NCBI GenBank assembly: GCA_021806885.1
Contig: JAKAPT010000007.1
Coordinates: 1-37,461, forward strand
Length of the DNA: 37,461 bases
Origin: a bacterium
Lineage (GTDB): Bacteria > SZUA-79 > Acidulodesulfobacterales > Acidulodesulfobacteraceae
Direction: 5' to 3'
Below are positions 20,928-22,742 of the stretch, piece after piece (position 1 is the stretch's first letter; each line of letters opens with the position of its first letter). Made by a program: the position numbers and the translations under genes. The notes under the pieces are model-generated. The model was given only the letters and a program-made list of their open reading frames with translations. It did not search any database and was not told the DNA's origin.

Positions 20928-22511
20928 TTAGAACGCCACCCTCACGTGGAAGAAGTACGCGTCGGTATCTCCCATCCATTGTCCGTAATTCAGATAACCG
21001 GAAGAACCGGAAGGCAGGTCCCTGTAATTCCTGGCATTCAGGAACTGATAGTTCTGAGCGTCTAGAGCAAGCGTTATATATTTGTTCAGACGGTAACCCA
21101 CGCCGATGACCGTTCTCTGGAAATCGTAAGGATTCCCTTCCGTGAAACTTGCCTCAAGGGAGTCCGGAATTGAATAATAGAATCTCTGGAGCAGACCGAA
21201 TACCCCCCATTTGCTGTGAGGGAAATTATAATAGCCCAATAAGTCGTAGCCGTGTTCGGTGTTGTGCTGGACGGCCGCGGATCCCTCATTGAGATTAAAA
21301 GGAAGGCCGGCCCCTGCTGAATTGCATGTATATGAGCCGGATATAATTCCGCACCAGCTTCCCGCGTCCTGGCTTATGCCCCCCGAGCCGCTGATAAAGC
21401 CCCCGCTGGTCTGGTTTATGCCGTAGTCGAACTGGCCGAGGATTACGGCGTTCGGCATTTTATAAGAGAGTATGACCGAGTTCCTGACGTTGGGATTGTC
21501 GTTGGTAATCCCAAGGAATGTGTTTCCCTGAGACCATGAATAGTATTCCGTAATGCCAAGGCCGTTAAGGCCCGAATCCGCCCCCAGGGGATAAAAAGTC
21601 AGCCTTGCCTGCGGGGATTTCTGATCGGTATCTTCGTCGTTATGGAATGCCGCGTTGTTAAATATTCCCAACTGGTAATCCAAGTAAACCTTTCCGTTCG
21701 CCTTAAACGTTCCGCTCGCCCCCAATCCCGCCTGAGTAGAGGTTACGCCGATAAAGCCCCAGGGGGTCCTTTCGGCCATGTGGTAGCCTAGCATGCCGTC
21801 TTCCCACGCGATTATCGGAGTCGTAAACTGTCCTAACTGCACGTTTACGCTGAGTCCGTTGGAGTTATACAGATTGTTGGACTGGAGGTACGCGTATTTC
21901 AACCTGTAATATTCGTTGCCGGCCGTGAAACCGGAAGAAGATGAAGAGCCGCCGCTGTTATTCGACCTATTTATGTTCGGCGTAATTCTTAAAAACCAGT
22001 TGTCGTCGTGGAAAATGAAATTTAAATATGCCCTGTTTACGTTAAAGGCATTATAGTTATTATTGCCTGCGGCGGGGCGCCATGTCTGGAGCTGGAGAGA
22101 CGGGGAAAATCCGCTGTTGTTGTAGTATCCGTAACCGGCGTAAACAAGCGCTCCGAGGCTTATGTGGTTTACCCACGACGGAAGGCTTTCATTTTTAACG
22201 GTTTTCAGCGAAGCTTCGAGCTTCTTTTCTGTGGCTTTCAAATTTTCAATCTGCTTGCCGGTCTTTTCGGCGTTTGGGTTTAAAAGCTGGTTGATGACTT
22301 CCTGCCCAACTTTTACCCTTCCAGGACCGGGCTTCAAGTATACTTCTCCCGTTGCCGGGTTCTCGTAAAGGCTTATAGTTCCGCTTGCCGCAGCTGCAAA
22401 GGACTTTGCAGGCACGGTTAACGCGAATACAAAACCGATAATCGCTATTGCCAATGCCAGGCCATACGGCCTTCGCGTCACCGGTCTTTCTTTCCCAAAA
22501 ATTACTTTCAT
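20928..22511 (-). CDS. Outer-membrane porin (OprP-like, probable phosphate/anion porin)
   Basis: A 527-residue exported beta-barrel protein. The signal peptide has a basic start (about 1-15), a hydrophobic core (about 17-36) and AxA-type processing near SFAAAA. A short coiled-coil-like stretch (about 66-105) follows, then alternating amphipathic strands rich in Tyr, Asn, Gly and Trp. The last residue is Phe in HVRVAF, the canonical outer-membrane protein C-terminus. The overall plan (N-terminal helix plus 16-strand barrel) fits the Porin_O_P/OprP family. A five-unit 11-bp Pho-box-like array precedes a TATTAT -10 upstream, so phosphate limitation may induce it. Substrate identity is inferred from that promoter and not from pore residues. 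Confidence 0.8.
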   Translation of the reverse strand: MKVIFGKERPVTRRPYGLALAIAIIGFVFALTVPAKSFAAAASGTISLYENPATGEVYLKPGPGRVKVGQEVINQLLNPNAEKTGKQIENLKATEKKLEASLKTVKNESLPSWVNHISLGALVYAGYGYYNNSGFSPSLQLQTWRPAAGNNNYNAFNVNRAYLNFIFHDDNWFLRITPNINRSNNSGGSSSSSGFTAGNEYYRLKYAYLQSNNLYNSNGLSVNVQLGQFTTPIIAWEDGMLGYHMAERTPWGFIGVTSTQAGLGASGTFKANGKVYLDYQLGIFNNAAFHNDEDTDQKSPQARLTFYPLGADSGLNGLGITEYYSWSQGNTFLGITNDNPNVRNSVILSYKMPNAVILGQFDYGINQTSGGFISGSGGISQDAGSWCGIISGSYTCNSAGAGLPFNLNEGSAAVQHNTEHGYDLLGYYNFPHSKWGVFGLLQRFYYSIPDSLEASFTEGNPYDFQRTVIGVGYRLNKYITLALDAQNYQFLNARNYRDLPSGSSGYLNYGQWMGDTDAYFFHVRVAF

Positions 22512-22622
22512 TAACTCCTCCCCTTTTTTAAATTAAATTGATTTTGATTGATTTATTGATAAAACGGTTAAGCCCTGAGCAGGAAACAGGGATTTATTAT
22601 AAAAATGTTTTCTCAGGTAAAT

Positions 22623-22628
22623 ATAATA
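22623..22628 (-). promoter_or_regulatory. -10 box of the porin promoter
   Basis: The minus strand reads TATTAT, exactly 10 bases after the CTGTAAC half-site of the Pho-like box. This is the spacing known for PhoB-activated promoters such as E. coli phoA. There is no separate -35 box, also as expected. The leader would be about 100 bases. Confidence 0.55.
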
Positions 22629-22632
22629 GCAA

Positions 22633-22687
22633 AAGAATGTTACAGATTTATTACAGTTTTGTTAAACTTTTGTTAAGAAAATATTAC
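22633..22687 (-). promoter_or_regulatory. Pho-box-like array of five 11-bp repeats
   Basis: Five consecutive 11-base units (22633-22643, 22644-22654, 22655-22665, 22666-22676, 22677-22687) each begin on the minus strand with [G/T]TAA[C/T]A or close to it. Two are TTAACAAAAGT and TTAACAAAACT. The unit nearest the gene contains CTGTAAT-AAAT-CTGTAAC, a 7-base direct repeat with a 4-base AT spacer that matches the layout of the E. coli Pho box (CTGTCAT-N4-CTGTCAT). The TTAACA-N5-TTAACA pair also resembles the Bacillus PhoP box. Confidence 0.6.
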
Positions 22688-22742
22688 AAATCTGTAATGT
22701 AGAAAAGAATGGAGAAATAAAGGTACCCGATTTATTTTCGAC

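Follow-up and report, generated by a model that had tools for sequence, protein, structure and literature searches.

In Bacillus subtilis, the PhoP box is built from repeats of the TT[AT]ACA type. The Pho box bound by PhoB consists of 11-nt direct repeats with seven conserved and four less conserved bases, and such boxes, with the motif CTGTCAT in E. coli, are found in E. coli and many other bacteria before pstS and further phosphate genes (PMC4415409). In the window analysed here, the whole stretch of 37,461 nucleotides of bacterial DNA, five [GT]TAA[CT] units follow one another on the minus strand between positions 22639 and 22687, with a step of exactly 11 bp between all of them, and they conform to the definition of a Pho box, which asks for at least two CTGTCAT-like units in 11-nt direct repeat. 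A five-unit run at this spacing occurs only once in the whole window. The features of the promoter and of the gene behind it are the following:

22683..22687, minus strand: array unit 5 (distal), GTAAT; from the sequence
22672..22676, minus strand: array unit 4, TTAAC; from the sequence
22661..22665, minus strand: array unit 3, TTAAC; from the sequence and the comparison of class 1 sites
22650..22654, minus strand: array unit 2, GTAAT, the first half of CTGTAAT-AAAT-CTGTAAC; from the sequence and the comparison of class 1 sites
22639..22643, minus strand: array unit 1 (proximal), GTAAC, in the position of the -35 box; from the sequence and the comparison of class 1 sites
22623..22628, minus strand: -10 box TATTAT, 10 bp past unit 1; from the sequence and the scan of porin promoters
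22515..22521, minus strand: ribosome-binding site GGAGGAG; from the sequence
20928..22511, minus strand: the regulated gene, coding for a 527-aa porin-like outer-membrane protein, with its ATG at 22511

An imperfect palindrome, ATTACAAATCTGTAAT, occupies positions 22683-22698 of the window, where it overlaps the distal array unit and supplies one more unit, reversed in orientation and reading CTGTAAT on the plus strand. The preliminary description of this site had listed five consecutive 11-bp units and, nearest the gene, the pair CTGTAAT-AAAT-CTGTAAC with a -10 box at 10 bp; read on the minus strand, the units and their coordinates are exact and the pair is present at the distance claimed. 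At this promoter and at 14 other array-bearing porin promoters, the array replaces the -35 box at a fixed 10 bp from the -10 box.

At 1.377 Mb in 82 contigs, the draft genome is rated 99.6% complete, and a pattern scan located mismatch-free runs of three consecutive units in just a handful of places. A single copy of pstS is encoded (C15:15158-16045, minus strand) as the first gene of pstSCAB-phoU, and directly upstream of it lies a four-unit copy of the porin array (C15:16240-16277, minus strand), while another array site precedes a PHP-domain gene (C68:47364-47401, plus strand). As a safeguard against circularity, the scoring matrix was trained on the porin promoters of other genomes only, with no site from this genome and no pst site. 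It assigned scores of 65.8 to the pst site, 56.2 to the porin site and 47.4 to the PHP-gene site, against a null maximum of 10.8 on both strands of 1.4 Mb of simulated AT-rich DNA. A site before ssb on contig C67 is without the -10 geometry and was left uncounted. The scan for arrays before pst genes by which the Pho-box proposal was to be checked was thus positive at the only pstS promoter, and since the array stands before pstS of this same genome, the absence of similar arrays before its known phosphate genes cannot be held against that proposal.

Orthologues of the porin sharing 53-66% identity occur within the same family (SZUA-79 / Acidulodesulfobacterales), the named relatives in the databases being an SZUA-79 isolate and other metagenome assemblies; the SZUA-79 group is presumably the Ca. 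Acidulodesulfobacterales of the published description. Upstream regions of the porin gene were scanned in 19 genomes, 15 of which retain four units and the -10 box at 10-bp spacing and four of which have the porin without the array. When spacings of 9-11 bp were scanned, 10 bp was the best in every one of the 15 array-bearing promoters. The array is also found upstream of pstS in all 14 family genomes examined, with matrix scores of 21-62 at the pstS loci of 13 relatives; at seven outgroup pstS loci no array was found and every matrix score was below -13. Further sites in the relatives precede genes for an MFS transporter, TonB, several TonB-dependent receptors, ExbB, a CHAD protein and a PF04185 phosphoesterase, and the MFS transporter, TonB and receptors, CHAD protein and phosphoesterase agree with a regulon whose other members are phosphate genes. 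The Pho-box-like nature first ascribed to the site is borne out by the copy at its own pstS and by conservation in the family before the porin, pstS and other phosphate-type genes, and on this good comparative evidence a PhoB-type Pho-box promoter of known kind, an ordinary control element, is a well supported assignment.

Clusters of TonB-dependent receptor, TonB and ExbB genes were observed at loci L118, L120, L126, L129 and L134 from the relatives G003, G007, G002, G010 and G001, and many of the receptor and TonB genes there have a Pho-type array upstream. In the group as published, the receptors are assumed to serve siderophore uptake (PMC6776010). The arrays at these clusters suggest phosphate-related uptake rather than siderophore uptake, or at least not siderophore uptake only.

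The class 1 sites share a polarity, with GTTAC/GTAAC or TTAAC as unit -4, TTAAC as unit -3, GTAAT as unit -2 and GTAAC as unit -1, and unit 3 is TTAAC in 11 of the 14 sites compared. The preliminary description had regarded the site as a mixture of two known consensus types, the inner units having the Gram-positive PhoP form. The inner units TTAACA-N5-TTAACA are indeed present, but the class 1 comparison reveals a fixed order that is lineage- and position-specific rather than a mixture, and the likeness of these units to a PhoP box does not mean that two regulators are involved.

The stretch is very probably a PhoB-type activator site, a Pho-box array combined with a sigma-70 -10 box, serving to switch on the porin along with the phosphate pump when phosphate is low. 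Copies of a PhoB-like response regulator would sit head-to-tail on the 11-bp units, which stand in for a -35 box, and would recruit RNA polymerase at phosphate scarcity. The outer-membrane porin would then be switched on together with the PstSCAB pump, such that phosphate could cross the outer membrane via the porin, for which we infer a selectivity for phosphate, and then the inner membrane via PstSCAB.

Of the 15 other family genomes searched, 13 encode one to three OmpR-type regulators, and none was found in the remaining two, which are 85% and 78% complete. In each of five relatives examined, TIGR02154 (PhoB) is the best NCBIfam model for one regulator, with a score of 245-257 bits that is about 30 or more bits over the next model and short of the TIGR02154 cut-off of 296 bits, and the DNA-binding domain of the relatives' PhoB-like regulator matches 1gxp, the structure entry of E. 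coli PhoB with DNA. The phoB promoters of the relatives are ordinary, with no array seen and no sign of autoregulation of phoB by the array, and the array is therefore not a generic promoter feature. Two assignments were rejected: the phoB neighbour considered as PhoR is an AsmA/DUF748 protein, and a protein in the window, considered as a histidine kinase, belongs to the GGDEF type.

PF00486 (OmpR/PhoB wHTH) has no match in the window's own genome even at E<=10, although that draft is rated 99.6% complete and most family genomes have 1-3, and the AsmA-like gene that adjoins phoB in relative G002 was likewise not found. The missing regulator weighs against the PhoB reading, as do the PhoB scores below the cut-off in the relatives and the four genomes that have the porin but no array. 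The absence of both genes would fit a Pho-type operator whose regulator has been lost or replaced in this species, with the 11-bp units either bound by a non-OmpR protein or left as relics of a recently lost PhoB. This is nevertheless unlikely, as the arrays of this genome are intact to the same degree as those of its relatives, which argues for a working regulator, and one assembly gap in the 82-contig draft would also remove two neighbouring genes. The absence of phoB and the AsmA-like gene is here put down to a single gap in the draft, with real loss as the less likely alternative. Binding by another OmpR-family regulator, for instance a second one resembling YycF or OmpR, is less probable still; the sharing of the array between pst and porin would then reflect envelope or acid stress and not phosphate. 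Direct repeats at about 11 bp do occur beyond PhoB, and several relatives possess a second OmpR-type regulator close to the YycF/OmpR models, but in relative G004, which is 100% complete, the single OmpR-type regulator is PhoB-like and the array before pstS is retained, and the targets centre on phosphate. A chance repeat is refuted despite the AT-richness of the surrounding region, since the expected number of five-unit runs in the window, counting both strands, is ~5e-7 with a window-wide Markov model and ~1e-5 in simulated DNA of AT-rich intergenic composition, while 15 genomes conserve the array and the porin site scores far above the null maximum.

The product of the regulated gene carries a signal peptide and ends in phenylalanine, and no significant match to it was found in Pfam, NCBIfam, PHROG or PDB sequences; PF07396 (Porin_O_P) gave no match at E<=1, and the family cut-off was not reached. 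When a profile of 17 orthologues was compared with that of Porin_O_P, two runs returned probabilities of 96.7 (E 4e-10) and 93.7 (E 2e-7) over about 290-350 columns at ~13% identity, including the region of the GQF..P motif, while the controls (reversed profile, TonB receptors, another OMP and OEP) reached at most 1.2. AlphaFold modelling on five sequences gave a pLDDT of 34, too low for use. The OprP-type porin of the preliminary description is thus retained as a remote relative of OprP, on the profile-profile probability of 94-97%, but not as a member of the PF07396 family.

A second class of 11-bp arrays is present in the same genome, with the order GTAAC/TTAAC - TTAAC - GTAAC - [GT]TCAT - GAAA[CT], followed after 10 bp by TATAAT. 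The four loci (L004, L005, L002 and L006) carry these arrays at the following positions:

C9:7552-7617, minus strand: before a secretin-ATPase-GspF-pilin operon
C24:4232-4295, plus strand: before comM
C30:17031-17095, minus strand: before the gene for a 408-aa HNH-like protein
C77:3028-3092, minus strand: before an operon coding for a VirB2-like protein and for a TraG/VirB4-type ATPase, whose domain was assigned via the orthologue in L186

The arrays on C9 and before comM have near-zero scores with the class 1 matrix, and class 2 is therefore distinct. A model built from the four sites yields significant sites before the orthologous operons of relatives, and two of these operons are preceded by class 2 arrays in G004, where the only OmpR-type regulator is the PhoB-like one. 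In several relatives (L188, L190, L193 and L197), a coiled-coil-like protein of 76-86 aa is encoded behind class 2 arrays. The class 2 targets look like a DNA-uptake regulon. If they were under the same regulator, phosphate hunger would be tied to DNA uptake; that the PhoB array system also drives DNA uptake, with phosphate starvation turning on the uptake of DNA as a phosphorus source, is a rather doubtful extension, and a literature search for PhoB and natural competence found nothing, which is weak evidence.

In the acid-mine setting, phosphate presumably precipitates with iron. The array provides a defined Pho-box consensus for an uncultured lineage from this setting, along with an initial sketch of its Pho regulon, and it ties a family of unnamed porins, together with the TonB-dependent receptor clusters of the relatives, to phosphate uptake.

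In comparison with described systems, the array resembles the Pho box of PhoB in its 11-nt direct repeats before pstS and phosphate genes and in its CTGTAAT, one base from CTGTCAT (PMC4415409). It differs in having four or five units in the fixed order GTTAC/GTAAC - TTAAC - GTAAT - GTAAC and, relative to E. coli, in the A that replaces C at the fifth base of a lineage-specific consensus. The inner units TTAACA-N5-TTAACA fit the PhoP box of Bacillus subtilis, but here each TTAACA is a single position of an ordered, longer array that has a sigma-70 -10 box and belongs to a Gram-negative lineage. Like the phosphate-selective porins OprP and OprO, to which it is linked by the profile-profile match and whose family is marked by a trimeric barrel with an arginine/lysine constriction that binds phosphate, the 527-aa protein has a signal peptide and an F at its C-terminus, while it differs from them in lacking a PF07396 match and in sharing only about 13% identity.
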